Assembly (NCBI GenBank): GCA_029964075.1
Contig: CM057144.1
Location: 5,541,281-5,605,280 of the forward strand
Direction: 5' to 3'
Length of the DNA: 64,000 bases
From: Patiria pectinifera
Taxonomy: Eukaryota > Echinodermata > Asteroidea > Valvatida > Asterinidae
The stretch's first letter is position 1. Every line of letters starts with the position of its first letter. Below, in pieces: positions 15,466 to 60,500 of the stretch. The notes beneath the pieces were generated by a model. It made no database searches, was not told the origin of the DNA, and worked only from the letters and a program-made list of their open reading frames with translations. The position numbers were made by a program, and so were the translations under genes.

Positions 15466-15589
15466 GGGAAATTATTAGCGAATCGTCCGGGCCGTTTTGT
15501 GGGACGAGTAGCTGCGTGTCTCTGGATACGTTTATGCACTGGACAGTCATAACATTACAGGTAGAGAACATCATTTGCAGCTATCCAAA

Positions 15590-17776: not shown

Positions 17777-18310
17777 TCAGTCACACATTTATGTTTTGGA
17801 GCTACGGATCTCCATGGTTTGAAATTCGTGATAAACCGTGGGAGTACCATATTCATGCATGCTTATAAGTACATCCGTGGTTATCCGTCATCTTCCTTGG
17901 GTCGTCGTTTAAAACTGTTCACAACTTTCGTGATGATGAAACGTCATGAAAATCAATCCGTAGTGCAACCGTGGGACATCCGTAGGACAACCGTACTGAT
18001 TCGTGTTATTCGTGTTATTCTTGGAGATTCGTAGCTCATTCGGGTTGGAAATCTCTACGAATTCGCTACAAAATGTTCTACGGATATGCCCGGATGCGAT
18101 AGGGTTCTGCTAAGGTTGTATTCTTGACTATTCGTAGGAGAATAGGTCATCCGTGGTCATCCGTGGCCCAATCGCAGACAACCGTGGCGTTAACACCATT
18201 ATTCTTAAGAATATGCCTACCGTCGACATTCTTCAACAATCCGTCCATTGTCTTGACAAACCGTAGTGTATTCGTGGTGTATTCATTTTATCAACATTAA
18301 TTTTTCAGTG
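17777..18310. repeat. Degenerate short-period repeat rich in ATCCGTGG/ATTCGTRG
   Basis: About twenty octamers of the type ATCCGTGG, AACCGTGG or ATTCGTAG occur in roughly 500 bases, often spaced 10-12 bp, for example around 17955-18045. The block starts at the edge of the N gap, so it may be larger. No open frame or known element is recognised. Confidence 0.6.
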
Positions 18311-33500: not shown

Positions 33501-36500
33501 TGGGGAGTTTTCCAAATGTGCTTTCAGCACTGCGTCGCTAGAGTTGATCCTAAAATTGAGGAGGTCTCTGAAATTTCCGGACGTGCTGCTTTTCCCCCTT
33601 ACAGGCAAGTCGTTATTCACGCATAACATCAAGGAAGATATTTTGGACTGAGTTTCTGTCTGTTTTCAGCAACAGTTCGCTGGATGGCATCGTTCACTTT
33701 ACCAAGGATGTTCAGCTTTGGCTTTTCAGTTACGGCCATGAAGTTAGTAAAGTCTATATGTGAAGCTCTGTATCAACTAGATTGCGCATGAACCTTCGCG
33801 CACTCATGACAGTCCTTGTAATTGTGGTGCGGTAAAGCCTTCGTGATGAGCGCACCTGGTACGCCTCGGGTCACAGACTGCGGGAAAAGAACAATGTGCA
33901 CACTAGGTGGTCCTTTGAAGCTCAGTGAATACGCTAGCTAGGGGTTAGTCATTTAACCACAGACGTCGAAATGTCTTCGACTTTTTTCACAGTATCTGTT
34001 GGCAAGTCTGCCTTCAAATCATACTGTTCTTCTGGCGCGAATGTTTCCTTCAATAACTCATATCGAAGGAAGTCTCTCACACACTTTCTCGATGCATCCA
34101 GAGGCTAGAAACCGTGGCCCAGCACCTGCGTCCAAAGTCATGGACGTCGTGCAACTTTCCCCAGCTACTAGGTGAAAAGAATGAAGAGAAAATTTAAAGA
34201 GGGTCAAAGTCAAAGTTGTACTCAATAAATAATAATGCGTCCACTTGTGGACGATAATTTTAAAAAGTCTTCTTTCAAGTTGTAATCAGTGCCAAGTACT
34301 GCAGATATGTGCCCATGCAGTAATATGATTGTGACGTCGTTACCCATTTCCTTACTTTCAGGGATGAATGAAGCAGGTCAGTGTAACTCCTCTACCAGTC
34401 ATTTCTCTGTGGATATCACTCCACCCGTTGAGGGTCGACTGCGTGCCGGGCCGTTCTATGACATGGTGAGTGCTTGTCCGAACAGTGTAAGTCTCTTTTA
34501 TATTACTGTGTGAGAAAAATTTGTATTACATTACGATGCATGCAGCTATTGGTAACCAGCTATTAAACCATGCCCTCAGCACCGGTTCCAAATAGTCGAC
34601 TAGATTAAAGTTTAATAGTTAAATTATGGTTAACCACCTACTAACCATAGTCCTCACTCAAACTTGCTGAGGACTGTCAGGACAGTATTAAGGGCTGGTT
34701 CATACTTTACACAGTTGTGAACGCAAAGTTACTAATATAATATATATAGAATAGTCACTTTTGCAACTTCATTATGCGAATAGATTTTGAGACGTCACAC
34801 ATTTACATTTATGTTGGCATTTGCACTGAGTATGAGACAGCTGTTTATGTGTTCTCACACTGCAAATACATGCGTAGTTGTTTCAAACCCACGTTTGTTT
34901 TGTATTCACACCTAATATGTATCACCTTTCATACAAATGAGCAGTACTTGCCATGATGTCATACATTTGTATAATTGCATTTTGCATTTGCAACTGAACC
35001 GGACCGTACATGTATTTGCAGTACATACTTCCTGTGACATCACAACTTTTCGTTCGTCTTTGTTTCTGTGCACTGAGTAAGAACCTTCATAACTTCTCTA
35101 CCAGTTGTTTCTCCCTTGATCTAACCACTTCCAGTTAGGGTTGGCTGTGTGCCGGACCAGTCTTCCACTCACATTAGAGCATTTTAACTCCTCCATTTCT
35201 TTCACCCCTGCAGCCTGTGACATACACGGCCATCAGCGAGTCAATCCCATTGGTATGGCTGTGTGGTGGACCAGTCTGCTACTCACATTGTGCACTCATC
35301 AGAGCATTGTAACTCCTCCATTTCTTTTTACTCCTTGCAGCCTGTGTCATACACAGACAGCATCGAGTCAATCCCATTGGTATGGGAGGATTACAGGGAT
35401 GATGAGAGTGGAATCAAATCATTCAACATACGTCTCGCGCACGCTGCGTCATGTGATGTCGAAGACGACAACAACACGATGCCGGTACCCGGCCAGGACT
35501 GGCTGGTACTCGGCCCGGATATTGGGGATTTTACATATGTGGACTTGAACCTACAGGTAAGAAATTTGAGAAATAGTGAAGCATGAACAATACTAGTGAC
35601 CATCCCTTGCTTTGCTACACTCTCCAAAACACTTCAATATTTGCACATTTTGCATGTAAAGTCAACAGGCTGTCAGAGTGCAAGGGTTAATGTCCAATGT
35701 CCATGCCAACCAGTAGGTATTACAAAGAACAGAGGCTAACTTCATTGTGTTGCTGAAATGTTAGCAGAGAAATTGTCTAAACTTTTAGTTGGAAAAGTGT
35801 GTTAACCTGAAACGGACCTCACCTCCTAGCCATGCTGATTGTTTGGTGGAATGAGATTTGTATTGTTGAGTCTCCTAGGCAGAAAATGTTAGCAATGCCA
35901 TAAAATTATTTCAACTGAGGTGCTATTTGTTGTCACATGGCAGTAATCTTCAAGGTTTGAATTTTGTCAAGAGTTCCAGTGGCATAGCGACGAGGGATTC
36001 TGGGGGTTGAAACCCTTCACCTCCATGACCCTCCCCGCAAAAAAAATAATAATGATGGGAAAGGATGGGGTATTGGCTCCGTGCAAAAGTACTCCGTCAA
36101 TGGCCAGAAAAGGAGCGTTGGGGAGACCTAGACTGGTTCCTGGTCTATCCACTGGGTATTTCGGATTATCAAAAGTTATTGAGGGCGGGGATTAGTGTGG
36201 GAGAACATCGCAAGTTAAATTCGAACGTATTTGTGCGAAGACGTCATGGCTAAGCTTTGTGCACATTCAGGATAAATACGTTGTGCGTACGTCGAGCGCA
36301 AATCAGTACAGTACGCGCACGTGGTGTCCCGGTCCAAGGGGCTTTCAAAAGTGGTAACAGAGCGCCCTCTTTTGTTGCCACACGGAGCCACACTGAGCAG
36401 CGCTTGTGATCAATGTGCTTAATGCACTCTCTACACATGGTCCACTTACGGACGTGGTTAAAACCACCAACATGGCGATCCGACATATTGACATTTCGTG

Positions 36501-39500
36501 GAAAAGGAAAAAAATTGTGTGGAAAAGGAAACAAGGTTTTATATTTTGTGAGCACTGGCAACCCTGTTTTATTTTAAATGCCCCTTCATCCTCAGTCATG
36601 GCATAGCAAGTGGGGAAAATTAGGCCGGTGGAGAGACTGATCATGGTTGAGATCGTTCTGGAAAATACAATGATACGGAGAATCATAAACTGAGGATAAA
36701 CTATTAAACATCTGAATCAACATGGTAATAAACTTGAAAAAGAGGAGCCTATTTCCGACACCTCGTGTGGCGTGGCCTATTTTCGCCCATCCCAAACACT
36801 TGAAATCTTAACATATGTGGATTCAAACAGGACAACCAATAACTCGTGATCAATAACATGAAAACTGGGTTTAAACAGGAAATAAGCTTGCTCATCATCC
36901 GTAAACCAGCCCAACGCCTTCCGATTCCCGCGGTTGCTATGTCGGTTCGCTGCATTGGCTCGCATGGTGGCGCTCATGTAATATTAAAGTCGCAACACAC
37001 CCTATGAAACATTTCTTGCTACACTACTGAACAGTTCTGTACTGGGAATAGGATATTGAAAGTTTTTACAAATTGGATCTTAGACATTACATTTTCGCAC
37101 ATCTGTTTATAAAATTGTTATGGGTTTTGTAAAAAAAGCATGTAGGATAAATTTTATTTTAATTTTAAAATCACTCAAGCCTATTTTAATTAAGCACATT
37201 GATTACAAATCACTTTATTTACTCTATTTGATTCAACTTCTAAATCTGCTTGTCTTTTTCAGATGAGCCATCCTTACTTTGTCCAGTTGTTAGCCGTCAA
37301 CCAGGCAGGAGATAGTATCGAGACCCAAGTGGGACCCATCTTTGTTGACTCGTCTGAGCCGACTGCAGGACTGGTGGTTGATGGAATGGACTTCAAGATG
37401 GACATCACTGACAGCGGAGACAGAACCCAAGTTGCTGGTAAATGGAATATCGAGGGGCTATTGGAGTGAAAGAGACAGTGGAAGCTAATTCAAAACTTAA
37501 AATCTATCATTCACATTACGTTTGACTTGACTTTGACAGGCACAATCCTACACTTGCCCAACCCAATGGGCCCACCCTGTCCACTGAGAGACATTCCCTT
37601 CACTGATTCACAGTGGTCAGCGTTGGATTTCAAGGGACTCTGGAACATGAACTGGGACAAGTGGGACCTGGAGTACGAGTCACAGCAGGTGAGTCAAGTC
37701 AAGTGTGTCGCATGCCAATATGACCCATCAGGCCAGCGTTCATCTCCATTCTTAGTGTGATCCAACGTTTACTACTGAGAATATACCTATTTCCCCTTGA
37801 TGGGATGCCAGTCCATCACAGGTTACTCACCAGCTAATGCGAGTACCTATTTATAATCTCGGGTGGAGTGAGGCAAGTGGGGTGGAGTGAGGCAAGTGGG
37901 GTGAAGTGGCTTGCCCAAGGACACAACCTGGATATGCGATATGGCCATCACCTGGATTGAACACCTGACCCGCTGATCATGAGTCACAAACCCTGATTAC
38001 TACTAGGCCACACAGTAGTCCGCCTCCTATCACAACAGGTAGGCTGACAGAACTGTCTGGTAATTTTTTCACTATCTATTCTTCCAAACAAAGACACTGC
38101 AAAATGAAATATTGATTATTATCAAACAGTTCATGCTAAACAACTGATGAATAACTGTGTTGGTGTATTTTAGTATCGCATCATCATTGTTTTTTTGTAG
38201 GTATCGGTAGGTAGGTAGCCATCCTTCCGTCTCTAGAGTTGATGATCCATGTCATGACTTAGTTCACTGCAGTGCTGAGGCAGTGTTCCTTTTGACTGTG
38301 GAGGCCAAGCCCGTGTTTTTTAATGATGGATAAATCGTGCAAAATTCAGGACAACAGTCAAGACATTTGTCATTACCAAATGAGAATTTGAGAATTTACT
38401 TCTGAAGTCACATTTCTTTGCTTAATTTCAACATTTTCCTTTCCTGCCCAGATCTTTTCCTGGACATTTTGGAGAATAGTTATGTGCTTAAGTCATATTT
38501 CTTTGCTCAATTTACAACGTTTTCCTTTTCTGCCCAGATCTTTGCATCCGAGGAGAGCTTGACAGTGAAGATGGAGCGAGACACTCAAGGGCCTCGTATG
38601 CTGTCGGGAGCATACGTCACCAATGCACAGATTGTCAGGAGCTCAGAATATGAGGTCAGTCCTCTACTCACTAGATCAAGTGTAAAAAAATAAAATACAT
38701 TTCATTGTCATATCATTGTTATATCGTGTCTTCGATACTGTAATTTCATAGGTCTAGAACGGCCACGTGTCCAGTCCATAAAAGTGACTGTTTACTTCAT
38801 ATACACTGCACTGCATATAAATTACCTTTACCTGCATGATGAGCATGAAGGGCCTGCCCGCGCAACTCACAACTAATAACTGCAACCGCTCAGTCTCAGT
38901 TTGGCAGGAAAGCTCGCAGTTAACGAATGTTACACCACAAGTGATTTTTTTCTTGCATACCGTTTTTCATTTTGACTTATTGGCGTGATATAACTCAACA
39001 ATTATTGACTGCTGTGATGTTGGATATGACGTTTTTAACCCTCTCAGTGGGCATGGCTGTTTACTCCTCTTGCGTTTAAAACGTCATATGCCACATCACT
39101 GCAGTCAACAATTGTTAAATGTCTTCTGTTTATATTCTGTGTATGAATAGGTCATTTCTATCCAGTTATTCAATATGATTTCTGTCTGGTGAATTTTTTG
39201 CAGTTATTTCTCTCAAGTGACTTTAATTCAGTTGGTTTTATCTAGTGATTTACCTAAAACAGTGTAACGCCGCTGTAACGAACATCATGAGATCCACAGA
39301 AATTGTTCATAATAGCAATCATTCAATATAAAGCTGCCGATGCACTGGTGCTCACGTTTCAATAAATAGCTCCCTTCAGAACTTCACCCTGCACGCCCTG
39401 GTAGTTATTGAAAGACGACTTTGAACACGTGCTAACTATTGAATCATGTAATTACACAATTTGGGGGTTTACTAGCTACAGCAACGGGTAGCTATCCCCT

Positions 39501-42500
39501 TCTAATTCTCGGGGAATATAATAGCCACTTGTCACTCTTCTGTTGGCATTTTTCAACAACAGTGTTCGGTACATTTTGTACATAAAAATCGGGAGCTGAG
39601 AACGATGTTTCGTATAGCCAAATGTTCAGTATAGCGGTGTTCGGTATAGCGTCGTTTCACTGTTGTTTGTATTCAGTCATTTCTAACCAGTTACTTCTGT
39701 CGGTCGATTACTATCAATTGATGTCTCAGAGATATTTAGACCCAAAAAAAAATTGTCCAATCATTCTTTCTGGTTATTCCCATTCAATGAATGTTATGTA
39801 GTGATGTCAATCCAGTGATTTCTATCCAGAAAGTTGAGGTTATAAAGTAATTTTCAGGGAATTCTATGAAGAGTTCGCAAAATTTTTAAACGGATTTAAA
39901 CTAACTTTTTAAACAATTGGTTTTGATGAGGGGTTCGAAGGTTATGTTGGTTATGTTTAGAATGTAGGTAGCTTTAATTACCTCTGTCTTGAAAAACAAA
40001 CTTGTTTTAACAAGTATAGTGTCATTTTGATTTGTAGTTTGACTTGAAAGCTGCCTCACCTGACCTTCACAGTGTGACCAGTATTCTATTTTGGGATGGC
40101 CCGGATGGAGTCATCGGGGAATATGACTTTGGTGGACGGGAGAACTGGCAAGAAGGGATATGTCAGTGCTGCTTTGTCAAGCCTCTCAACCAGGTAAGTA
40201 CAAAACAACCAGACACCTGGTGAGTTTGGTTAGTTTTGTTATTTTGTTCATCGCTTGTTGTCCACAGTTGATTCGATGAAGAGAGCAATATGCTGCTTTT
40301 GATTTGGAAAATTGAAAGAAATTAGTTAAAAGTCTCTTTTAGTGGACTCTTTTAGTGGAATGTGTGACTTAATTGATTCAGATTTTAATTGATCAGTGAT
40401 AAGGGGTTAAAAAAATATTATTTTTGCATTCTGCATGTATATCAATAACCACGGGACCTTGTCTTAGTCACTTGCATTGATATTTAATGTAGGCAGATGA
40501 GGTCGATCTTTGGCTCGTAAAGGCTTGGAAAAACCGCGATCACTTCGGTTAAAACACGGTTTAACCTTTTTTGCAAAGCCGCCTAACAACCCAAAACGCC
40601 TACATTTCTTTTCACAGTCTGCCTGCCCGATGTGCGATTGTGCAGACTTCCTGGGTGTCACTGAGGACTATAACGCAACCTATGCCGTTACTACTGTTAA
40701 AGAGGTTATCACAACCGAAGCAGCCCAGGCACTATTCACGACAGAGGCTTATACTCCCTGGTCTATTGAGACACCCGACGAAGACGGAGACGGTGTCTCT
40801 GACGAGGACAAGGGGAGATGGATTCAGCAGAGAGCATGCGGCTTCCAACTCTCTCCAAGTAGGTTGATTGGCCTGTGACTTATTGCTCTCCAGACTTGAG
40901 CACAATGAGCATGTTGAACCCTTGAAAAACTGTTTTTCTACCACTTTATTTTTAGTTCAGTTTGAGACTGTAACATAGTACTTCTGATGCAGAAGACCAC
41001 GCCACGTCACCTTCTTTCATGGGTTCTTAGATGGCTACGAAGTCTGATGAGTGACAGACATCCGCTCCCGCAAACAGGGCACCAGTGAGCAGGCCCAGGA
41101 GGTGCAAAGCTCACAGCTTCTTCAGCGTTGCCTTCACATGGTCTTTGTAGCGTTTGAACTGACCACCGACAGAACGCTGGCCCTGGGTGAGTTCACCATA
41201 CAGCATGCAACGCGGGAGCCGGTTCGCTGGCATTCTGATAACACCATCATCATCAAGTCGACTCTCGTCGGACTGCAATAAAAGCACGCCACAAATCACG
41301 GTCTCCCATGGCCGTCCTGATCTCAGCTGCACAGTTTAGCCCAGTATCACGACGCAGCTGGTCCATGTAGGTTTGCACCTCATTGCTGACTTTGTCTCTC
41401 CAACTCACGTCTAGAGCCATCCTCAGCATGCGAGTGTAGCAGCTATCAAGTCGAGCCTCTTGCTTTGTATTAAGGGTCCATGCCTCAGAGCCGTAGAGTA
41501 GGATGGACTCCACGGTTGCACGGAATGGAGCTCGTTTGAGTTTATCCGGCATCATAGACCTCCAGATCTTCTTGAGGTTTTGGCAAGCCTTCCAAGCCTG
41601 TGCTTTCCTTACTCGGATGTCCTTGTCTGTTGAGCAGATGTGAGAGCCCAGGTATATGACGTCTTCTCTCACAGCTAGGGTAGTGAGGTCCTTGGTGTTG
41701 ATTTTCACATCCCAAGTGTCGATGTGTCGAAGTGTTGAGCTGCAGGCCAATCTTTTTGCACTCTCTGTCCACGCTGTGAAGCAGAGCTTGTGCCTTTTGC
41801 ACCAAATCCGAGACCAGAGCGATTTCATCTGCAAAGTCGAAGTCGGTCTCTACAATAGCACTCACCCGTCTGCTTTGCGTCTGCTTTGCCTTTACCTCAG
41901 AGCGTAGTCTAGGGCGATGACAAATAAATAGGGCACAAGAGTATCACCCTGCAGCACACCAGCCATGATCTCGAAGATGTCTGACTCGCCATCTGGGGTC
42001 AGCACCCTGGCAGAAGTGTTAGGTTATTTTCGGCCATCGATTGCCTTGACGATACGCTCTCGTTTGAAAAGGGCCCCCCGGTACCTCGTCCGGTCCAAAG
42101 CCAGTCCGGTCTTCAGCCCAGTCTCGTCCGGTACATGGTCCTGTCTGACCAGAAGTTTTGAAGTCAGTCAGGCGCATCAATGTATTGCCCTTCAGAGAAC
42201 GTCCAGAGCAGAACAATAGCAGTCTTACCGGATTAAAGATAAAATCCTTCCATAACGCCTTGGTAATTTACGGTCCCATTGTACACGAAACCCCATGGCA
42301 GGGGTTTTGATCTGTGCCGACAAAAGTGTTCTATTGTTTGGCGCTGAGAGATGAAAACCACAAGCGGGTTTCTTCTGGGATATATTACACGTGTCAATAC
42401 TTGCAAACAATAGACCCAAGGATAGAGGAGTTCCTGATTAGCAACCAGACCAGCTCCTGGGCCGGTAGCTGGGACGGTATGAGAGGACTACTTGGGAGGG

Positions 42501-45500
42501 GACGAGCTTACTGGGGGCCCTTTTCATACCGGGGCTGAATGGTCACGGGCCCTAAGCAGCCAAGACTGAGTGGATGAAGCTGTGCAGCCGCAGAAGGGGA
42601 CGGCTGAGGACCTCAGCCGGGATGCGATCGACACCAGATGCGTTGTTTGATTTCAAGCCATTGCCCGCTTTTCGAACTTCTTCAAACGAGAGCGTATCGT
42701 CAAGGCAATCGATAGCCGAAAATGTAGGCAGATTGTCCAGGCACGATGCATCAGTGGGGTTCCTTCGGTTCAGCAGGTCGTTAAAGAATTCAGTCCATCG
42801 CGCCAGGATACCACTTCGGTCTTTGATGGTCGTCGTTCCGGTGCTATCTTTCATGGGACAAAATAAGTACACGATCGGTCCGTGAAGAGCTTTCAAGGCT
42901 GTGCAAAAGGAGTGGCTGGTATTTGCGTCCGCGTGTCCTTGATTTTCCCGCATGACACGTAGCTCGCGTTGAACGTTCTTCTTGTGGAGGAGCCAGCGGA
43001 TTTCGGCCGAGTTGGGTAGTAAGGTCCGGAGTGTCCAGCGGGGTGTCGACAGCTTCGGGGAGATTGTCCAGGTGTTCCTGCAACAGTCTTTCAAGATCAC
43101 GAAGGGCTGGCAAGGACTGCACAACGCGAACGTTGAGTCTTTTCTGGGACTTCTGCTTGTGGATGGGAGGAAGTATACGCATGCGCGCCACGCATAGCCC
43201 TGGTGATGATCACGTGCCGCAGGTCGCCATGACGCACGATGACATAGTCGATTTGATGCCAGTGTTTTGATCGCAGGTGCATCCATGACGTTAGTCTAGA
43301 GGCTAGACGTTGTTATTGTTTGTACGCGATAGCCCGTCGGGATAACCAGCCGCCGCGCGAGGGCGCTATCAGACCGACCAATATCGATCACAAACCCGTC
43401 AGAACAACGTCTAGACTACTTGCTAACATCTCCCCCTGAAAAATGGGGGAAATTAGTGCGCATGCGCCACTTCTGCAGGCAATATACGGTCCATTTTCAG
43501 TCCCAGACATACCACACACAACAAAAAAGCTAACCAATAAAATTGCACAAAAGTCTTGCTGCAGCTTTTAACCCACTGGAAGAAATTTGAGAGTTTGCTT
43601 CGGAATTACCATGATTTTCTTTAAACTGCAAGCTGCATATATTAGGCTAAACAGGTGCGTGCGCATTACACAACCAATAGCAAGTGGTCTAGATGTTGTT
43701 CTGACGGGTTCGTGGGCGATATTGGTTGGTCGTGATAGCGCCTTCGAGCGGCGGCCGGTTATAGCGGCGGCGCGGCGGGCTATCGCGTACAAACAATAAC
43801 AACGTCTAGCCTCTAGACTACCAAATTCGGGACACTAGCCCGAATTCGGAACACAGCTCAAGCAAGCAAAGCCCGTTATTATTGGCATTTCCAATGCTGT
43901 GCTGCCCGATGATGCCTTGCCATACATGGTAGTTAGTACCAACTCTGGCGTTGAAGTCGCCGAGTAGCAAAACGTTGTCAGTCGGTAGAGCGGATCGGAG
44001 GGCGTCATAGAATAGAGCCTTGTCCTCGTCAGTTGAGACAAGAGTCGGTACGTATGCGATGAGTAAGGTGACAAAACGGCCTTCCACAAGTGGGATTCGA
44101 AGCGTCATCAGGCGCTCGCTGACGCCGACTGGCGATTCAGACAATGACAAAGACAGCGGAGTGCGGATGGTTAACCCTAAAGGGGCCGGGGGGCGGAATC
44201 CGCCCCCTCAACATTTTCCGCGATAGCTTCTACAAAAAAATTTTTCGCGACCCGAGCTGTTATGACTTTTTAGCCTCGAGCTTTGCGCATCTTTTGATAC
44301 CAAAAACATAAAAATCGGACAACGGGTTGGCACGTAGCGATAATTTTTTCGGCGCTACGCGCCGTGAAAACTGAATTTTCGCATATACGTCGTGTACACC
44401 GAGCAGAATTGTCATTCATACATATGAATAATTAATTAGCCATAATTCCAAAACCCTTGACCTATAGTCATGACATTTCTTGGGCATGTTTAGGAAGAGT
44501 TGTTCTATGCATGTGCTGAGTTTCAAAAATTTTCGTCACTCGATGGCCGAGATCTTAGGGGGGGGGCGGAATCCGCCCCCCCCCCCCGCCCCCCCGGCTG
44601 AGAGATGGTCAAAATAACCCGGCCCCTTTAGGGTTAAACTGACGCCGTGGATGCATGGGGTGCCGGCTGGGCGGCCCATCCAAAAGAACGTGTAGCCTTC
44701 GCCGACTTCCGTAAGTGAGCCTTCGTCGGAGAATCGGGTTTGGCTGAGGGCGACGATGTCGGTATTGTATCGGCGCAGTTCAGCGGTGACCAAAGCGGTG
44801 CGACGCTCGGGTCGACTGTTGTTAGGGTTGTCGAGGAGTGTGCTAACGTTCCAAGTAGCAACATTTAGAGCCTTCGTCTTAATATCTTTGTCTTTATTTC
44901 CTTTTGTATTTCGACCGCATGACGAGACACTCCGGTGAATGCGGCAATCCACCCGGAGAAGGAGGAAAAGGCGATTTTTAGGCCACCTATGCTGGGCCCC
45001 TCCTCGTATGATCCTGAACAGGCCTACTCAGTCGACTCAGTACTGTCGAAGGAAACTGCTGTTCCGTCCCAGTTTCGGACGACCATCTTTCCGAGCCCGC
45101 CTACGTGCAGATATACGAACTAGAAGCTTCCACCTGGTCTGAGCCTGCCCCACTCGTTCGTGAATCCATCGCCGCAGGACTTTTGATGAGCCTTCCCCTC
45201 CAATATATGAAGGCGATGTGGTAACTTGTGCAAATGATGTTTGAAGTGGCGGAACGGGCGCACACTCCGTAGCCTACTATCTTGATGCGTGCAAACAGTT
45301 AGGCGGGCGGGCTAAATACCCCTGGTTCATTTACCGGGAGACGGTATTGTTATTGAGGGAGCGTGGGACCCTTCAAGCCAAAGCGGGAGTCGGTCCACGC
45401 ATGAACGCACACGGTACGGCCGTTCATGGTGATAGTTCGTAGTGGGACTTGTACATGGACAGGCAGACAAAAGAGCAATGACAGGATTAGTGATACTTTG

Positions 45501-48500
45501 CTGGATGTTTACTGCCCTTCTTAAATCCCTGGCAGTTCACTTCAGTGGCCAGTTGGTTTTACAAAACAAACTGTTACTATATTTTTTGCATCGTGGCTTT
45601 CTTGGTTTACGACTTGCAGTCCTTCCAAAAACACCTGAACGAAAAGCAGCAGAGCATTGTGTCAATAGGCCGTCGTATTGATGACCACACTAATTACACG
45701 CGAGGGTTTTTTTTTACGGACCTAGTGAGAACCAATAGCTCTGTAGAAAAAGTGCTCACCATGAAGTGTGGTATCATTGATACGAAATTTCCATTCCATA
45801 GAACCTGAATAAAAGGCCTACATGTACATTACATGCTATCAATGCTGTAGTAGTCGCCAATTACAGTGAACAATAGCTCTGTGCAGAGGATTTAGTGAGG
45901 TCCCCCGGTCTTGGCGGTCAGTTAGTGGAAGCCCCCACTGCTGGATATAAAAACCACAGGATTCATTGTTATTAAAATGGTGATTTGTATCGGGAGCCGG
46001 CAGTGCCAACCGTCGGACGGTTTGTAGAAACAGGTCACCCGCTTTCTATGCAAGCGGGAGCCGATTAAAGAGGGGCTCAAATGAAAGCGGCTCCTGGTAA
46101 ATGAACCGGGGGTATTTAACCTGTCCGCCTTAATCCGATGGCAATGAAATCCAAGACGGCCGGCTGTCACGGCGCTGCATTGCCTTGCCGAGAATTCAGG
46201 TTATTCGGAGGTCGCCAACACGTTGACACACATGGGTTTTGCATCGGAGTTTACCTTCTCCTAGGCAGATTGCCAAACGAGGCTGACGAGTTCCACCTAC
46301 CCGGCTTTGGAATCAGAGTTGTCCTTCTCCTAGGTGGACTGCCAACCAAGGCTAACGAGCTCCACCTGCCAAGGTTTGGAATCAAAGTTGTCTTTCTCCT
46401 AGATTGACTACCAGCCACGGCTAAGGAGCTCCATCTATCCCAAGCGTCTGGTCATAGCGCCAGGAACACGCTTGCACCCTCTGTCATTCAGTCAAAATGG
46501 GGTTGACACGAGGAGCCAGTAGGATTTCGTTAGGAGAGGCTAATGTTGAGACGCCATGCTATTGGATGGGCTATTTCAGTGGGAATGTGGCTGTTCATTT
46601 CTCCATACCAGCCCAGCACGTCCTAATCCTTTAACCCCAAGACTGTAACATCTGTAATCCATGAACAAATACAGTGTATGCAAACGTTCTGTGAAAACCC
46701 TTTATTCAATATTACGCTTAAACCCTCCTTGCCTATTACTCACTGGGGTGCCCTAAACTGTCCCAGCAGTCTCTGATTTATATTCATAAGTTGACGAGGT
46801 GATTGTTGCCTGGTTTGGTCACCTCCAGCGTAGGAACAAGGACAAATGTTTTAAGGAAGAACAGCGATCTGGAATTTTCTCAAATTCCAGATCGCTGGCA
46901 ACTATCTAAAGTGGCCGTCCAAAGAAAAGATGGATTGACAACATCAACAATGACCTAAAATGTCTACAGATCAATGCCAACCTGGCATTGAACCGAGTAG
47001 TTTGAGACAGACGGACTGTAAACAGATAGATGAATGCCAGTCCAACATATTCCTGTGGTCATATCCACCCAAGAAGTCTCCAGCTTATCATTATTTTGTA
47101 TAAAGTTTGATATTATAAAATATTTTCATGAATTTCTTTTGCCAGATGGCAACGCATCGCAGGCAGTATTGTGGTGCCGTTACTTCAAGGATGAGTGGTC
47201 GATGTCGTCCAGCGTCGTAGATCTAGACTTCGACCCCTCAGTGGAGGAACGTCATTATGCCATCAACTTCAAGGTTATGCCCTTCGATGCTGAGGAGGTA
47301 GATAAATATTAAAAGTTAATTATAACATTTTCTTGATCACAACTTTTGCTGCTCTAATTTTTATGTGAGCTAGCATTGATTTTGAACAGTGGTTCTGAGC
47401 TCAGTTGAGGAGTTTCTAAAAAAGGAGACTCCTTTCCCTAATCATTTCACCTTCTCCTTGTCACAGGATGAGTGGTCCTTTGAAGTTTATGTTGACGGTA
47501 AGCTGCTGTCCTCATTGACTGGCATACCGGTCCTGTCCTCATCCACTAAGCTCATCATTCATGTCTTCAATCGAGACAGCTACGTCGCTGAGCTACACGA
47601 CCCCTTCAATCCTCCGTCTGTCTCTGCAACGCTCAGAAACATGAGGTATGTCTAATGTGTTTCTTTTCAATTTGTGTCATAATTTTTCTGCTGCACCACT
47701 AGGCGACGCATCACAGATAGTTGCCACACCACATATATCATATGTACAAAGTCCATACATAATCTGTCACTTGTTTTTTGTCACTTAATGGTACACCACA
47801 GAATTATCGTGTTAGATTTTCCTTGTTGGAAAACCTCTTTTGCTCTTTGCAGGTTAATTGTATCATAGAATATGCATAACCATGCCGCTCATTATATACT
47901 CTGTCCTTTTCTTTGGATATAGGATGCCTCCTGATCAGAGCAAGCTGTGTCGTTACGGGGCACCATTCAGAGCTGGAACCAGTCCTGTCTCATGCTACTT
48001 TGCAGGTGTCGGCTCTGAAGCAGGGGCCACCGATATCGTAGCATTTAAAGAGGTGAAGCTGGTCATGCACTGTTGATAAACAAATCAAAAGCCCAAATTA
48101 ATGCCAGTTCATAGAGTTTGGGCAGGTTTATTTCAAAATATTTCTTTTCGGGAGCCGGGGTGTCATGATTGTCTGTAATGCCTTTTATTATGCTTGATCA
48201 TACTTGATGTGATAGCGAACGAAAACGCAAATCTGTGATGTCACGGAAAGTACTCACATGCATGCAACTTTTCCTCGGATTAGCTGATTTCCTCGTTTTT
48301 TATTCATACTTACACCATTAAGAATCATAAAATACTGCATATACTCTTGCATACTGCATATAGATTTGTTTGGAAACATTCCAGTTGCATGCCTGTTCTC
48401 CGAGTTCTAATTTGTAAAGTTGAATGCGTTTCAACTCCAGCGAATTTCGTGGCCAATGTTTCCGGACACCATTTTCACTTTGCATTTGCATTCATGTGAA

Positions 48501-51500
48501 GTATAAACCAGGGCCCAATTTCATAGCGCTGCTTAACAGTTAGCAGAAAAGTTGTCTTTATATTGCTCATTTTCCTTTTTTTTTTGGTTTTGCTGACTTC
48601 CCTTTGTGGTTTGTGTTTGAAAAAAATCACAAACCAGAAGATGAATCTTGACATACAGTCTCCGTTTCTGTCTCTTATGTTGTACAGGTGGCAAAGCCAT
48701 GTGTCCCCTGCATCAATCCCTGCGATCGTTACCAGTGTGATCCCTCATGTTCCATGGACACTGTACCCATCACATTCACACTCACCAACCTCACTCTTCC
48801 CTACCTGGAACTCCTGAATTGGACCAGCTCTGATAACAACACCAATGCAACTACACCTGCTCCTAGGGAAGAGGGACAAGAGTTTCCATTTTTCTTGACA
48901 GGTGGGCTCAGTAAAAATGAGAGCAACAAATCTTACTTATGGATTGCAGTCAATCTGATTGCTGAGAAATTGCAGGTATAAGATAAGCTGAGGGAGTGGT
49001 TGTTGATGAAGGGAATACATAGTAAATACCTGGTACCTGGTAGGAAGAAATTCCTTCAATGCTGGAGCGCCGTAATGGCAGCCGTGCTAAAGCCAGGGTA
49101 ATAATGGAGCGCCAGGAGCGTCATTTAGTGATGGATATGAGCGCTATACAAGAAGCCACTATTGTTATTATTATATGTGCCAGGCCGGTTTTAAACAAGT
49201 ACGTTTATAACAGGCCTGGGACCTGGATGCTGATAATGACCTGAGCCAAAATTAGGGGCATGACACGAAGGTGTATTACTCTTCTACTGAAAGGTATATT
49301 TTGATGTGTTTTTGTGTTACAGTCCAATCCTACTTAGGCAATGGCAAATCAGTGATAGCCTCCTCCAATGGTTTCTACGTCGATGACACGCCAGCATATC
49401 TAGACATATTTTTCTACACTGATCCCAACTTCAATGAGTTTGAGCCCACATCTTTCCAGTCCTCAGCCTCCAGCATTCAAGTCTTGTGGAGCTTCCTGGA
49501 CATAGAAAGTGGCATAAAGGTGCCATCTTTTATTCTTTGTTGAGCATTATAATATGTCCCAAGTTTGGTAGCATCTTGATATATGGTACTAAACTATTGA
49601 TGTAGTTGGAGGTGCGTATTTCCAAATGGACAACTTTATAATTCACTAATAATTCAATTTTTTAAGTGCGGGCAATTCCAGCGTTTCACCGATCGTTGTA
49701 CTGTATTTGGTCTCAGTGAAAAGAACCCTGAAAATGTGTGTGTTTTTTAAAGGTGTTTACACCCACCACCTAGTAATGGTCGATGAGATGTTCGTGTTCA
49801 TTTTCTCTGAATCATTTAAGAAAATGTAATGTCATGCTCTGTCGAAGACATTGCAATTCTTTCCTTGCATTTTCAGGCTTTTTCACTGAGCTCTGAGTAC
49901 GAATAATTGTCAAGTTTGTGATGTCCGTAATACTGGAATTGCCTTTGTCGTTGAAGACAAAAAAACACTCCATGACTTTAGATTGCAGTGAAACATACAA
50001 CATTGGCCTGTCTGTATGTGTTGCCACATGAGATGATCTGTGGAGTTGCAAAAGGTCAATCAAAGGTTCATTCATGGTTTAGATAAATCTGAGATTTCTC
50101 CATGACAATTCAAAATTCAGTGTTCTGAAAAAAAAAAGTGTTCTTATGAGACCAATTAAAGGGATGCTCACGACGGTTATTACCAAATGCCAACAAATGT
50201 AGTAAAGGTGTTAACCAAAATGGAACTTTTATTTTAACAAGTCAAACATGAGAGATTGCATATAAATGAAAAAGTTAAGAAGAGGCTTGGAAGGCGAACA
50301 GTATGTATGTGTTCGTTAATATGACTGGCCACTGCAACTCAAGATGCTCAGTAGAGTTATACAGATCTGTGAGAAAAATCAAACTGTATTCAGTTATGAA
50401 GATTTGGAAGTGAATGATGTATCAACTTGTACTGAACAACTCTGACTTTCAGGAGCATTACTGGGCCATAGGAACCTCCAGTGGGACCACAGACCTGCAA
50501 AACTTTGTCAACGTTGGGTTGAACCAGACAGCTACTAGCACTGATCTGACGGGGTTACTGCATCACAACACTACGTATTATGCGACACTGAAGGCTATTA
50601 ATGGAGCAGGCTTGGAAACCATAGTTGAATGTGATGGTAGGAAGATAGACTGACATACAGACAGACAGACGGACAGACAACATGACAGCTGTGATCTGAC
50701 AGGATTACTGCATCACATCAATACTTACTATGTGACTCTGAAAGCTATCAATAGAGCACGCTTGGAAACCATGGAAGAATGTGATTGTAGGCAGAGATAG
50801 ACAGACAAACAGACAGACAGACAACATGATAGTGATCTGACAGGATTACTGCACCTCAAAACTTCACAATATGTGACTGTGAAGGCTATGGAACAGGCTT
50901 GGAAACAATCAAAGAATGTGATCAAGTGTGCAACTTTTTCTCTGATCTGCTGATTTCCTTGTTTTTTACCTTTCATGTATGGCATTACAAATTGAAAATT
51001 ACTGTACAAAGTCTTGTGGGATTGGGGTTTCCTCATTTTGTTTAAGTTCCCAGTTGCATCCAGTGTGTTGGTAGGGAACAAAATAGACTGAAATACAGAT
51101 AAACAAACAGACAACATGACATGGATCTGATGGGCAGTGGCATCATAACACTATGCAGAATATGTGATATGAACATTATGGGCGTACAAAACCTTGTTCA
51201 ACCCGAGTTGCCGATTGGGAACGCCAAAGCAAAGTGCATGTGGAGTGCATCTGGAAAGAAGGAAAATTAATGATCCTACGAAAATACTTTACATCCCGGA
51301 ACAGTAACAAAAATTGGCAAAAACAAGCCCCCTATATGCGATCATGTGCAATTTTTTTATGCACAAAACTGAACACAAGTTGCGGTATGGGGCTAGGTCT
51401 GCCATATTTGTTCTTGCCGTTCTCCATCTACTCCCCAATCTTGTTCGCTAACATGCATAACATGCATGCATGTCTGCTTTCTCAGGTGTAACTGTTCTGC

Positions 51501-54500
51501 TGGAGCAGCCTGCTGCAGATGACGTTAACACCACCTCCATGTTCAGCGAGAAGTTTGAGGAGGAAGTGTACCCACCCGATGTGGAGAAGAGCCCCGACCC
51601 AACCAAGACTGGGACCTCCTGGTCTAAATCCAAGGATAAATCTGTGGCTCGTTATGGTAGGACTTTTGCAAGATGTGTTGCTCTGCTTAAAATTTGCTTC
51701 ACAGTGATTTATTATTTTTGGTTACTTTTTTAACGGCGATTGACAACTATTTTACGTTCTTGCCTACTTTGACACAAATCATCAAAACCTGGGGATCAGT
51801 AATTAGCAATGTATCTCCTCAAACTATGTGTATTGGCTGCATGCACAAGTACCCCATCACCATTGACAGAGAGACATATAATAAACACTTGAATGCCATT
51901 GCCATTATTCATCTGGCACACCCATGGGAAGGCAATCCAGGGTTGTGGACATTTGAATAAATATTAGTTGTGCACATTCAGGGCCAGAAACCGATACCGC
52001 AGTCTCAGCAGGCTAGCTTAGCCAGTCCGATTATCACTCAAAGGGTCGGTTCATACTCGGCGCAAACGTGAATGCGAATTTGTGAACGCAGGTTTTTTCA
52101 GTTGAAAAGCTGGCTCTGATTGACAGGTGTACACATCATCAATAAGTATCTACTTAAAATCCATTCTCTAGGGACATGTAATTCAAAGGACAAATATTCC
52201 AACACACATGAATAAAACCATAATCCCAACTATATACCATTTTAAACCAGCCCAACCCAGGCTAACTATTTTTTTGTCATTGCAATGGTTGATTTACAGA
52301 ACGACTGACCGACAGCTTTGAGACCGTCTCTCGAATATATACAGCATTAAGACACGTTATTGCAATCCACCCCGAGCTGGCTGGTTATGAAAATTAGTCT
52401 AGATAGATAACCGTATGCTTGCGAGCCTATGCATGTACTCACTGTGTCCCTCACACTGGCGCTCTCATAATAGTCACCCCACCCCATCTACTAGTGCTCA
52501 TGAGTTTCTAGAGATCATATCATATGATTATCTATGACCATCCATGCCTCTTCCATCCCCAGAGTACTGCGTGAGTAGCTCTGCAGACCTCCTAGATGAC
52601 ATCATTCCCTGCATGGTGGTTGGCAACTCCTCTGGCTCCGTGGCCATCGAGAACGGATTGATTATCATACGAGCCGGAGACCGGGAGGAGAGATACAACC
52701 TGGATGACTATCAGTTACCCAAAGACACCACCAAGATAATTGACATCCCACCAAAGTTCAACATGGAACCTGGCAAGTAAGTGTATACAGGCAGTGTGTC
52801 AATTTATTTGATTGTTGCCTTACATTGTTCTTCGGGATGGAGTGGGTCTTTTGTAGACTTATAAAATATTGAACCATCTTAACCATGGCTAAAATTAATA
52901 ACTGCCGTCTTTGAAATAATACCTTTTGATTTCATTCGCATTATTTCTCTTTTTAATGTGCAGGAGTCTTTACTCTTGGATGAAAGTGTGCAATGCGGCC
53001 AAACTTTGTGTGACAACACCAGCAGGAACAAGCACTATACTGGGTCAGTATATCATCGTCCAGGATGAGAACCTATAGAGCAGTACGATGAACCAGCATG
53101 GCCCTAAAACCGTTAGACTTTTAGACTGGAGCTAGACAAGGTTAACTTGTTTAATTGATAACTTGTTCTGGCAACTTGAATCCTGCTGGTAAGGCCGCAA
53201 TGTACAATGATATGTATTGCTTTCTGTGACTTATCCAATAGAGAACGGTGATATGATGATGACATCATCCAATGGTACCGACCTCGTCCTGAAATCACCA
53301 ACAAGCCAGAATGGGAAAACGGGGGATATAGGCAACCACTTTGATTTCACTGTGGCTACAAAGGGAGGTAGGTACAAATCATGTGTTGTCCAATACAGAA
53401 TACAATTTAAGTTATAACAAGTCAAATGAGACAAAGAAGAGTACAATGTGACCACTTTGATTTCCTTGTGGCTACAAAAGGAGGCAGGTGCAACCAAATG
53501 ATGTAAGATAACAATGATGTGCATTCGCCTCATCAAGACATCAGCAGCCGATTTCATGAAACAATGCATAACTTATGCCTTGCCTGGGACTTATGCTTAT
53601 TAATATTGCGCAGTTTGAAGTGTTGCGCAGCTTGCGCAATAAATAGTGGCGTAAGTAGACGTAAGCCATTGTGGACAGTTTTGTGAAATCGGCTGCAGCA
53701 AACCTGATGGAAAAGTTTGACAGGTAACCTCTTGTTTTTGAAAAGTTGTTAGTATTAGGTACTGTAGAGATGTTGACCTTTAGTGCATTGATAGTTTTCA
53801 CTAGGCTTGGCTGTGAGACAATTTAGTGATTCTGTAAAGGGTCTTGGTATGTGCTCTGTGGATCTCAGGTAATACAAGGGATCTTTGACTTCAATGTCTC
53901 GGAACTTGAAACGTTCTTGTCCAATTATTGGAGCATTCTTTTGGGGCTGCTTTCCTGACATACCATCCTGCATGTGCACATATCGGCACTGTTTTCATGA
54001 ACTGACACGCACGTGGTGTGTGCGTGCACTTCGTGAAGTTTTGCATATGATTATTTTTGTTTGAACTGACACGCAAGCTTACACTGTGGTGGAAATACAG
54101 CTCGAAGAAAACGCTTTGAAAGGTTTGACGCGATTTTACCCCATTCATGGGTTTATTGAATCATTTAATGTAAAAATCTGTTAACTAGTGAAAGGCAATG
54201 TTGACTTGAACTGGTGCATAGTTAATTAGAAATTGAATAATTAAGGCAGGTTTTATTTAAGTCTGGAAAACAAAAATGACGACTCTAGGCTTGGATATCA
54301 GTTTGTAAAGAGAATCAAGAAAACTCGGGGACCACCGGGTGTCAGTTCGTGGTGTTAGTAACGAAAAACCGCAGCCTTCCTGTACAAGAATACATGCTGT
54401 TTGCAGGCTGATTTTGTTTGGTTAACTGGGACTTCGTTTGGCTTTTAAAGCTCTTGGTGGGTTTAACATATATATAAGTGCGTGTGTTTAATGTCTTCTG

Positions 54501-57500
54501 TATATTTGTCACGAAAAAACATGTTTTTCTGATTACGTTGTTTATTTCAATGTTCCTTGGAAAGCGAATAGCACCACGTATTGTCTGACATTGACCATGA
54601 TGTTTGTTTGGGAGAGTGCCCCCACGTAAGATGGTGTCAAGTCCCCAGTCCCCGCCCCCTTTTTATTATAGGAAGGCCGGGTGTCCAGCGAAAAAAAGCC
54701 TGTCTACCTTCCAGCAAGGATAATATTGAGTTGCCCCCCCCCCCCACACACACTGTAACATGTAGCCCCCTCTACCCCACTCGCTACTCCCCCCCTCCCC
54801 AGGATGAGAACCCTGGCTACGCCGCTGTCGAGTATGAGCATCAGACGCCACCAGCAGTGCATTCGAGTGTCCCTATGGTCCCCCATCAGTCTGCCTTTTT
54901 AACTATTGAGCAAGTATTTTTGCACATAATCCTACCGGACTGCTGAACAATTGACTGACAAAACTCCAAACTTTGCAGGTCTGCCGCAGGGCGGTTCACT
55001 CATCCTAGGCCTGCTGGATGCCGATAGAACCAACCAGGAATTCACATCAGACGCTCCCCTCGAGTATACACCCTACATCACTAATCCCCTGAACACCATC
55101 CAGTACACATCAAGACTGCTTAGGCACAGGTTGGTCTGACTGCCCACTTCATTGCATTTGAAGAGTTCCTTTCAAAAACGCGATAAACACCATTTTGGTA
55201 CCTATTAGAATCATGTCGTTCCCGGATCGCTCACAGTCAGTTTTTGTCTGTTTACAAAATACAATAAGTGAAAAATGTGCAGGAATGGTAGATAGTACCG
55301 TGTTACTACTTGCTATAGAGCAATTAGTGGAGGCCATAGTGCATGCTTGCAAATGATTCACACACACACTAAGAGCCAGTTCAGATTCCACACGAATGTG
55401 GATGTGAAGTGAAATTGAAGTCAAGCAAAATTACATTGGAGTGAAATGTGTTAAGTTTTTAAGGATTTGAAACACATTAACCTTACTTTGACATCACAAA
55501 GTCGCATGCACTTTTGTCTGAAATATTAACCGGCCGTTTAAGCGATGAGTACACACAATGATCTGAATGTGCACAATCCTGTTTCGTCTTTGTGGAAGTG
55601 CTCTGCACAAAATTACAAGACATTCAAGTATCCAATATCTATCTCTCTCTATCTTTATTACTGTTGATTAGGGGCTTTGGTTTACTGATTTTGTGGAATC
55701 AGTATATTCAAATTAATATGTTGAACTGGTCTGCATTCCGGTTTGAACAAGCCTGTCAAACTACTTGGGCAAAGAAAATTGAATATTTACTCTGAGACAT
55801 TTACAAATCTATGTATACATCATTTATGTATACATTGATAATTGATTCGTCTGAGTTTATAATGTACACTGGACCATTTGAAAGTCCTGTTCCAGTGACC
55901 GTCCATGTTCCCATTTAAATTTATTTGTTTATTATATTATTTTTATTTCTTGCTGGTAATGAAACCAAGGAATCCTCAAAAGTGACCTGGGCACTGTAGC
56001 TTGCAAGCTTGAATAAACCCTGTAGAGAGAAGACAATGAGCAGAAATTACAGATTTAGAAGTGGGAGGAAAACCCAAGAAGAATATTCTGGAGAAAACCC
56101 ACGGAATCAGATAGGGAATGAAAACCCAATCCAAACGTGGCCAGGGCAAGAATCGAACCGGGCCATAGCAGTGGAAGGCGAGGAAAGTAACCACGGCACC
56201 AACCTGACTTCCTTGCAAGTGACTCCAGTAGTTGTGCAGTCTCCTAAAGACAGAAAGAGCACAATGTTTCACTTTTAATTTGACCTGTTCTTAACATTTG
56301 CGCACATAGCACTGCAGTAAATTAATGACTTATTGTTTTCTTGCTGCACACTGTAGGGTACGCTATGTCTATGAACCAACATTCTACATCACCAGTCTTG
56401 GGCAGACAGAGCTGCGTGGACCCATGGTCATCAATCTCACTCTCAGCTCACTGGGCAACTGGACAGACACAAAGCATAGACTAATCTACTGGGATGTTGG
56501 TAAAAGAACTACTGTATTGTAACTATTGAAACTAAGTGTCCCAAGAATTTCAAATGTATGAACAGAAAAGTGTCATATCCCAAATTGGAATAAAAAAGTT
56601 CAAGTTTTTCTGTCAATCTGTTATATTTTTGCACAGATAATTCTGAATGGCGAGATGCAGCCAAGACATGCAGTGATATGGATCAGATAACTTACACTGA
56701 TGATGGTGCACAGGTCAATGTTGAGGTAAGTCCTTTCAAGACATATAGGATCTTTTGCATTTATCCCAAAACTAACCGACTGGATTATTATCCAAATGGT
56801 TTCCTGGATTAAAGATCGGACTGGTTAAACTTTCTATGTGACAAACCAATGTGTGTTCTTCTTAGGTTTGTTCTACGAGGTCACCATCAGCCTCATCACC
56901 CTCAGAGGCGACACGCAAGCGGCGCCAGGGATCAGACCCACCCTTCTTCAGCCGTGAGACCCATTTTGCACTGGCTCAGGTCACTACCGCCATCCCAAAT
57001 AACCCGCCGGAAATCTCAGATCTGCCTGAATACTTCTACATGAATGAGGACCAAGGTTTGTCTATATGCGTAGCCTTTAAAGGTAGAGTAGATCATTGGC
57101 AAATATATCCCAAAAGTAATTGCCCAGATTTACAGCTAAAAAGCTTACTTGGTTGAAAGCTAGTAATGACACTAAACACCCTGTGAAATTATGCCTTGTG
57201 GCAAGCTGTCATTTTGAAGAAAATGATAAATGAATGTCATTTCTAAAGATGTGTCAAGTGACACATATTTGGAAATATCCATTGGTAGTCGGTTTGTAAC
57301 TGGGCGAGTCTGTGTAGGGTACGTGCAAGCATTGAGACAAGGCACATGCGTGCGCAGTTGCTGCTATTCGGCTGTTTTAAGTGCCTGACATCGTGGAGAG
57401 AATATGACTCGGCAACTTTTGAAACCAAGATCCTGGAATATTGTTTTCTCGGAATATACAGCAATCACAGAGCTAAAACGTCATCGTCTTTAGATTTTGA

Positions 57501-60500
57501 GCATGTTTGTTGCTTCAAACAAAAACAAATGCACAAATGACAAGTGATCTACTTTACCGGTGAATAATAGCATAATTCTTTGCTGATTAATTATATACAT
57601 GAACATTCCTTCGTACAGTGAAAATGAGCTTCGTTGCCAGTACTTTGGGGATCCATATACCTTTTTGTTCTACAGGTACTTTGGTCTACACACTTCTAGT
57701 AAGCGACCCCGAGGATGACATCCTTGCTTTTGAGGTTGACCAGATTGGAGACCTGAGAGGAGAAGCAAATATCACTGAGGATGGAGTACTGAGCTTCACA
57801 CCATGTCTGGATTGTCAGGGGACCGCCACCCTGCAAATCACTGGTGAGACTTCAGTAAATATTCAATACCAGACTGTGGGCGGTCTTGGTTGTGAATGGT
57901 TAAGCTCTTAGGGTTGGATTGTACGTACTCTATTTTAATTAGGTACGTGTAGTGCCGGTCAGTTTACTGTTGCATGCACTTAAGTACCCACCTTCGGTCC
58001 CCTTAATCTTAGAGTTGTCTTTGTAATATACATGTATATGCATAAGCATAAGGTTATGCTGTGAGAGACAACAGAAAAATCAGTGCCACGGTATCAAAAC
58101 AAACGAGCAATGTTTAAAATGTCGAAGCTGACTCTTATTCATATCGCAATTACCTCCATCTTATACTTGAAGGTTTGCATGGTGGAACGTCTAAAGATGT
58201 AAGGTAATTTGCGGTGACACCATTTACATAAATCTCATGTGACTGGGTGTGGTTCTGGAAAGAGCCAGCTCCTAACACGACAGTATATTTTGAAGGATCC
58301 TTAATCTTATCCATTTTGCAAGTCAACTTATTTTTACTTGTTTCTCATTCTTTCTGTCAGTGAAAGAAGTTCAGACCTTTGCTGAGATAGCGCCCCTGTC
58401 TACCACTGTCAACATTTCTATTGAGGTCAAGCCGGTCAATGATAACCCGACCCTGTTCAGTGCACAGGATGGGAGCATTGTTGGAAACGGGCGGAGTGCA
58501 CTGGTAAGTCAAACAACAATAACTATATATAACTATATGCAAAGCATGATCATATAACCATACAACCATAACCAGATCCATAAATATTGTTGGAAATTGG
58601 TGGAATGCACTGGTTAGTCAATCAACAATAACTAATATGCAAAGCATGATCATATAACCATAAAACCATAACCATATCCATAAATAACCATTAGCAAAAG
58701 CATAACCATAACCTCAGCCATCTAATTTAACTATAAACATCATATAAAATAGCACTCAATGTGGGTAAATGTGTCATGAATTGTGTTTTGTGAAAGACTG
58801 TTGCAATTTTTCAGATGGTATTTGTTTTGCTTTGTCTTTGCGGCAGCTGATAGTTGAGCAGAACACCGGGTCCAACGTCGCCTACAAGGATCTGACGCTT
58901 GTGCTTGGAGCCTATGACCCTGACATCAACGATAACCTGACCATTGTAACTCAGCCTCCATCGTATGGAACCCTGGAAGAGACACACCAGTCGGAAGAAG
59001 TACCCTCAACCCAGAACTGCAGTGACCCCTCTGTTGACAGCGAAGAGCCAACCATCCCTTGTGAACTTAAGGTACCGCATGACGGGGTAAGTAAAGACAC
59101 ATTATTATAAGCTTTATTTGTATTTTTCTGAGTCAAGAACCCTTGAAAGTATTCAACTGGCCCCTTACATTTCACTGTGATGTTTCTCACCTTCCAGGAG
59201 GACATGAGTTGGACAACATCAAAGTACACGTATGCTCCAAACCCTAACTACCACGGCAGGGATAGTTTCCTTGTCTTGGCGGAGGACCTGTCTGGAGCCA
59301 TGTCTCAGCTACTGGAGGTACAGATTGCTGTGCTGACCAACCCTTGCATCCATGAAGGCACCTGCAAAGGTGGGTTGCTTACCAAACTAATGCCCAATTT
59401 GACATCAACGGGCAAGGGCTTGAAAGGATCGTTAAAAACAAACTAGTAACATTCTCTATTGGAAACAAAACTAGCAGTAGACTATTACTGAGTTTAAAGG
59501 TAAGGAGACACTATCACATTTCCTTTTTTTCATTGGAGTAATGTTCTATTGAGACTTTTGTTATCGTGAAGATGTTTAGCTTTTGCACAAAATAATGAAC
59601 ATGTTTGTACCCCTTCCATCTGGTCAGGAGCATTGAACTCATAGTCTGCGAGAAAATCTCCAGGATGTGGGTTCCAGTCCAGCTTGGGGTTATGGTATGT
59701 GTGTGTCCTTGGCAAAGGCACTTTGTCACTCATTGCTTCTCTCCACCCAGGAATTATTGGGCACCTGTGAAGGTAGAAATGGTTATTGTGGTTGATTTCA
59801 GCTGCTTTGCACAAAAATGGCAGCATCCAGCGGTATACTCCCACAGGGAGTTGAGGTTGTCTATGGAGTGTTTCTTTGGCGCAATGAGCAGGGTAATAAT
59901 GATTAAGCGCCAATAATGGTAAATACATATGTTAATAAATTCATTATTTTTTTACAGGTCCTACTGAAGACCCTAATTGTACCTCCCCAGCAAGAAGCAG
60001 CAGCTTTGAGTCCTACTTCTGTGCCTGTCAGCCCGGCTGGGTGGGCGACATCTGCCAGACTGATTACAATGAGTGTCAGTCCACACCGTGTGAATACCCA
60101 TACGTCTGCTATGATCACCTCGATGGATTTGCGTGTGCGTGTCCGTTGACTGATCCAGTGTGCGACGACCTGCATTGGACGTCAGTATTCAATACCGTTT
60201 GATATTTCTGCATTATTTAGTCACATAACACATTAGTCATTGAGACTCGTATTCGTCACTGTCTTCTTTTATACTTCTGCAGAGCTAAGGTAGCCCTTGG
60301 TGTGGTGTGCAGTCTTCTTATCCTGTTCATCATTGCTGCTGTGGTCTTCATTGTGTACAAGAGGCATCACACCAAAAAGTAAGCAATACGCACAAAACGT
60401 AAACAAATAAAGTAAAATACTTAATGCTAGTGATTATGTTTATCAGAGGGACAACATGGAAAAGTTTATGTTGTGACTCCTAAACAGTTAGCTTCGTGAC

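Follow-up and report, generated by a model that had tools for sequence, protein, structure and literature searches.

Why should the exon edges of a single gene be accompanied by decayed copies of themselves, splice sites included? The question is raised by a large gene in a 64,000-nucleotide stretch of DNA from Patiria pectinifera (contig CM057144.1 of assembly GCA_029964075.1, positions 5,541,281 to 5,605,280), the whole of which is here called the window. An initial annotation had reported such copies, or ghosts, at six exon edges of this gene. Our analysis finds them at five edges, and by analogy with published cases the exon-edge ghosts are probably mirages of the amphioxus type that arose from neutral tandem duplication. 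They are most likely a further example of this known pattern, not a new one. An additional bias of the duplications towards exon edges is possible, but not established.

Five exon edges with nearby copies

The gene lies on the plus strand at 34362-62424 and was modelled as a single gene of 29 exons, numbered 4 to 32. Exons were placed by splice-site context and reading frame, and the model is a prediction from sequence. With the donor of exon 31 at 61394, the joined frame of all 29 exons stays open until the final stop and translates into 1691 residues when counting starts at the first full codon in exon 4. The initial annotation contained one extra exon between exons 8 and 16, without which the frame is open, and our exons 16, 20 and 26 correspond to its exons 17, 21 and 27.

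All 57 exon edges of the contig 33387-64000 were examined by comparing an 80-base stretch per edge with flanks of up to 800 bases in both directions, using 60 dinucleotide shuffles for each. A strong nearby copy was found at five of them, with Z between 15.2 and 28.1 and no shuffle equalling the observed score: the exon 5 acceptor (28.1), the exon 16 donor (25.3), the exon 26 donor (21.3), the exon 8 acceptor (18.8) and the exon 20 donor (15.2). The next-ranked edges were far lower (exon 4 donor, Z 4.1; exon 32 acceptor, Z 3.3). An ungapped repeat search recovered all six pairs, i.e. the five edges and exon 4, while the self-blastn listing (E 1e-6; pairs wholly within the satellite at 25300-26420 omitted) holds the five edge pairs and lacks that of exon 4. 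Repeat units spanning an exon-intron boundary, as in mirages, are present at five of the 57 edges, and the exon 4 ghost is no such unit. The claim of six ghosted edges can be upheld for these five, close to where they had first been placed, but not for exon 4.

Exon 4 (34362-34465, plus strand, from the gene model and the repeat search) is the source of a ghost at 35090-35163 that is alike in 53 of 74 bases to 34384-34457, at an offset of 706. This ghost covers neither splice site and is therefore a partial-exon ghost; we rejected it as an exon-edge ghost, the 74-base match lying inside the exon without a splice site. Translation of this ghost in the exon 4 frame retains 13 of 24 residues and runs into a stop. 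The exon 5 unit starts within it (35142-35163 are common to both), which suggests that the exon 4 ghost predates the exon 5 duplication.

Structure of the duplicated units

All units lie on the plus strand. At the exon 5 edge, the ghost unit (35142-35258; ghost acceptor with first exon base 35214) precedes the true unit (35256-35385; true acceptor with first exon base 35341) at an offset of 127 bases. The arrangement is similar at exon 8, where the ghost unit at 38402-38457 (ghost acceptor 38452) is followed by the true unit at 38487-38543 (true acceptor 38538), offset by 86 bases. At the donors the true unit comes first. The exon 20 donor has its true unit at 53335-53399 (exon end 53367, donor 53368) and its ghost unit at 53451-53515, with a ghost donor at 53484 whose GT has changed to GC, 116 bases away. 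The true unit of the exon 26 donor (58477-58585; exon end 58503, donor 58504) runs head to tail into its ghost unit (58586-58694; ghost donor 58613), which gives an offset of 109 bases. For the exon 16 donor the offset to the first ghost is 150 bases. These five offsets had been noted before, as had a stop that follows in frame directly behind the donor of exon 16, and both are borne out here.

Ghosts at the exon 16 donor had likewise been reported and are present, but the array is longer than was said, with three units and the faint remnant of a fourth. The first unit is the true one (50537-50686; exon end 50636, donor 50637) and the second a ghost (50687-50831) with a weak ghost donor at 50787. 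The third is split by a 130-bp insertion at 50929-51058 that resembles a miniature inverted-repeat transposable element and has the ends TGCAACT...AGTTGCA. Its exonic half (50832-50928) precedes the adjoining insertion, which cuts off the donor, and its donor-like, AGAC-rich half lies behind at 51059-51180, together with the faint remnant of unit 4. Past the insertion, a site at 51071 that is similar to a donor scores 4.7. The idea that the third unit had lost its donor was rejected, given that the insertion merely severs it. Both ends and the first 40 bases of the insertion match a second copy at 48263-48389, for which the search gave inverted ends of 14 bases; 7 bases were read directly at 50929-51058. 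Because the insertion splits unit 3, the exon 16 array would be older than the insertion.

Several features are common to the five loci. In all of them the first ghost sits within the intron next to the true edge, and the true exon frame is retained. Extension of the exon to the first ghost gives a stop at each of the five and a frameshift at four. Since a stop is met when the spare copy is read in, ordinary splicing would hide that copy. On a scoring scale built from the splice sites of this gene, the first ghost donors rank below the true ones at exon 16 (0.7 vs. 7.9), exon 20 (5.3 vs. 11.5) and exon 26 (8.7 vs. 11.2). Exonic differences between true unit and first ghost are distributed over codon positions 1/2/3 in the numbers 4/5/9 at exon 16 and 8/10/12 when exons 5, 16, 20 and 26 are pooled, a spread that can be reconciled with constraint on one copy and freedom of the other. 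Units are arranged head to tail at exons 5, 16 and 26. Their exonic and intronic parts are 70-100% identical, with unequal lengths.

Comparison with known systems

Two amphioxus papers describe mirages as tandem copies across intron/exon boundaries, at donors as well as acceptors, in the genes for Adh3, the globins BflGb6 and BflGb9, troponin C and PGBD5; AG/GT signals are often kept and regular splicing is apparently unaffected (PMC3087553, PMC3902484). The same papers give unit lengths of 10-72 bp (Adh3), 60 and 108 bp (PGBD5) and 150-160 bp (globins), and the units of BflGb6 are 81-100% alike (PMC3087553, PMC3902484). The 60- and 108-bp repeats of PGBD5 overlap exons 3 and 4 in one of these accounts, in which Adh and troponin C are named too (PMC3902484), and the other proposes that new introns may arise from mirages (PMC3087553).

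The present gene resembles these cases. Offsets of 86-150 fall within the reported span of 10-160 bp, and here, too, boundary-spanning units occur at donors and acceptors while the true frame is kept. The differences are that five edges are affected in one gene, that the copies are visibly decayed and that most arrays consist of two units, the one at exon 16 having about four. The local duplication process straddling splice junctions that the initial annotation had suggested is thus in substance the published amphioxus mirage (PMC3087553, PMC3902484). That the pattern is special to this gene, on the other hand, is unsupported if the host is an amphioxus, given that those papers describe the same for several other amphioxus genes (PMC3087553, PMC3902484).

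Two other systems are related. In the potato RdRp gene, a tandem duplication across an intron/exon boundary produced a new intron (PMC4974935). An intron was gained there, whereas the old exon limits are kept here and no new intron appears in the model, which uses the single original edge at all five loci. Cases from Drosophila, in which local tandem duplication provides spare splice signals (PMC2891723), share this feature with our gene; in those cases, however, coding sequence was duplicated and introns were created, while here existing junctions were copied into introns (PMC2891723). The amphioxus huntingtin and VCBP literature mentions tandem repeats, and no exon-edge duplication was found in the accessible parts of it. 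No genome-wide survey of mirages was found among the titles listed in wider literature searches, which is not proof of absence.

Is there a bias to exon edges?

Tandem repeats in 33387-64000 were scanned every 20 bases, and loci scoring at least 30 were regarded as strong. There are six such loci, namely the five edges and 46234-46440. The latter is a 69-bp tandem repeat of three units in the large intron 10 and the contig's sole strong tandem locus away from an edge. In the main placement test, which excludes weak clusters and the exon 4 pair (score 30, dispersed, offset 706), units were placed randomly at positions not damaging an exon. Five of the six strong loci are on edges against 1.24 expected (P 0.0017).

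This result is nominally significant for the one gene and weakens to P 0.007-0.09 when the null is made fairer. On the assumption that edge duplications are detected 2, 3 or 5 times as readily as others, P rises to 0.019, 0.057 and 0.17, respectively. With three to four weak intronic loci added, P is 0.007-0.010 unweighted, 0.07-0.09 with a weight of 2 and 0.18-0.23 with a weight of 3. Including the four tandem loci of 17777-32886 (a satellite counted as one locus and three others, clusters scoring below 20 not being counted) gives five of ten loci on edges, with 1.40 expected (P 0.007; 0.07 with a weight of 2); none of the four sits at the six edges of that region. The piece 15005-17276, with a 19-bp tandem repeat at 15331-15466, entered neither placement test. 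The excess was tested after the pattern had been noticed, in one gene and with few events. There is an excess at exon edges, and it is suggestive.

Origin of the exon-edge copies

Neutral tandem duplication, the origin that we regard as probable, might have proceeded as follows. Replication slippage, unequal exchange or another ordinary process acting locally would copy, in tandem or nearly so, stretches of about 60-150 bp that span a single exon edge. The original exon would still be set by the first donor or the last acceptor of each array, and because these continue to define it, the spare copy ends up intronic. There it would be spliced out unseen and undergo neutral decay.

A number of observations weigh against this scenario. 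The excess of strong loci at edges (five of six) is not predicted by plain neutrality. Both ghost acceptors are at full strength, with scores of 8.0 vs. 8.4 for the true site at exon 5 and 9.3 vs. 8.3 at exon 8, so silent splicing around them is an assumption. Between the two copies lie 29 unmatched bases at exon 8 and 51 at exon 20, and a strictly tandem origin is therefore not visible at these two loci. Finally, a cephalochordate host was inferred for the window, not established; the GC content is compatible with it and says no more. Taking the mirages as proof of the species was rejected, since such an argument is circular.

The alternative that survives best, although we consider it doubtful, is that duplication is random and survival or detection unequal: copies inside exons would be purged, purely intronic ones would fade, and those on edges would be half held in place by the protein. 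Exon-interior placements, which account for 4-10% of positions depending on unit length, would indeed harm the protein, and the detection weights of 2 to 5 are what brings P up to 0.019-0.17. Exon 20 fits as well, with 30 of 33 exonic but only 21 of 30 intronic bases identical in its unit. Exon 26 shows the opposite (69/73 intronic vs. 23/27 exonic). Summed over the five loci, taking the first ghost of each and leaving out two further exon 16 alignments, the intronic halves have diverged no faster than the exonic ones (238/269 vs. 181/211 identical), although similarity was the criterion for placing the ends of the units, a choice that flatters the intronic identity.

The same totals lend something to a mutational process that favours exon edges, e.g. 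through transcription-coupled duplication, R-loops or steps in base composition at boundaries. If intronic parts are as alike as exonic ones, exon conservation offers no obvious reason why edge duplications in particular should be detected, and the placement tests with six and with ten loci both point in this direction. Yet the flattered intronic identity tells against this process as well, as do the post hoc nature of the test, its restriction to few events in one gene and values of P that reach 0.17-0.23 under detection weights. We therefore regard such a process as rather unlikely. Slightly less credit still is due to its stronger form, in which a duplication process of the lineage prefers exon-intron junctions and has left at least five independent junction duplications in one large gene, with spare splice sites for new introns.

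Active use of the ghosts, whether as alternative splice sites or as exons, appears very improbable. Two ghost acceptors do score like true ones, and the exon 4 ghost has kept 13 of its 24 residues. Against this, reading into the first ghost meets a stop at all five loci and shifts the frame at four, the first ghost donors are weakened, and the exon 4 ghost has a stop and no splice sites. Assembly errors can practically be dismissed: the window does hold a poor-quality duplicate, but the units differ in length and are 70-100% identical in their exonic and intronic parts, and the three arrays of the duplicated half are present in both contigs.

If the ghosts are mirages, the gene is a dense test case, with five edges affected in one gene and a graded series of ghost sites: intact acceptors, weakened donors, a GC donor and finally a site severed by an insertion. 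Should a genome-wide count confirm the excess at edges, a mutational process tied to gene structure would be indicated.

The second copy at 1-15004

The beginning of the window (1-15004, plus strand) is an error-ridden second copy of 49187-64000, with 92.8% identity in self-blastn, on a contig that terminates at a 500-N gap. Gaps of exactly 500 N occur twice in the window (17277-17776 and 32887-33386). Exons of the second copy contain 85 indels, 72 of them frame-breaking, and each of the 18 exons is hit by frame-breaking indels. Exonic substitutions are spread nearly evenly over the three codon positions (68/63/63). Excluding exon 31, substitution rates are 3.6% in exons and 3.9% in introns; with exon 31, the exonic rate is 6.0%. 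Over the whole alignment, insertions outnumber deletions (194 vs. 113), and a strand imbalance is seen in G>A vs. C>T changes (152 vs. 56). Isolated substitutions, i.e. those with five matching bases on each flank, amount to 0.6%, equally in exons and introns. Judged from these error patterns, 1-15004 most probably represents the same locus a second time, as a false duplicate from a long-read contig that was retained without polishing; a young pseudogene would be the less probable reading. An old paralogue was rejected in view of frame-breaking indels throughout and the lack of codon-position constraint.

This bears on the age of the ghosts. The three arrays in the duplicated half occur in both contigs, with the same unit number over the stretches shown, the second contig probably being the same sequence. 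The initial annotation was right to see three ghosts in both copies, but its conclusion that they are older than the split of the copies fails, because what the second copy shows is most probably the same sequence again in unpolished form. Whether 1-15004 is a false duplicate or a pseudogene, the shared ghosts carry little age information, and a false age argument resting on the duplicated contig is thereby removed.

Encoded product and other elements in the window

From a reading of its translation, the encoded product looks like a large single-pass membrane protein. Pfam matches above cut-off are Big_9 (35.5 bits, cut-off 23.6) and Cadherin_4 (27.6, cut-off 25.1); Cadherin_5, narrowly, and fn3 are below cut-off in the model. 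A phmmer search of a 764-residue part against PDB sequences pointed to EGF repeats, with 19 sequences at E <=0.1, of which 15 were Notch chains. Upstream of the modelled part, three additional exons are likely (19924-20255, 20728-20929 and 21313-21573), and no repeat clusters were found near them. When six open frames outside the 29-exon model were searched with Pfam, the one containing the third upstream exon gave an fn3 match just below threshold (24.4 vs. a cut-off of 25), and the remaining five had no match. Scanning viral contigs with a 308-residue part of the protein yielded two pattern matches, none of which was confirmed. Rfam (gathering threshold) and transfer RNA scans of the window gave zero matches each, and GC content per contig ranges from 0.39 to 0.43.

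Mobile and repetitive sequences are present elsewhere in the window. Broken open frames lie on the minus strand at 41253-45027 and resemble what we take to be a retrotransposon of the type without long terminal repeats; two of these frames had no Pfam match. Further broken frames are found on the plus strand at 28000-32000, among them one at 31217-31507 that presumably resembles a BEL/Pao-type integrase, also without a match in Pfam. A satellite of about 1.1 kb, built on TTTACTCATTTCATTGCTCAT, occupies 25300-26430, and nearly four units of a repeat of about 100 bp (32509-32886) reach up to a 500-N gap. A dispersed element is represented by related copies, 71-80% alike, at 15555-15999, 7939-8253 and 57077-57485.

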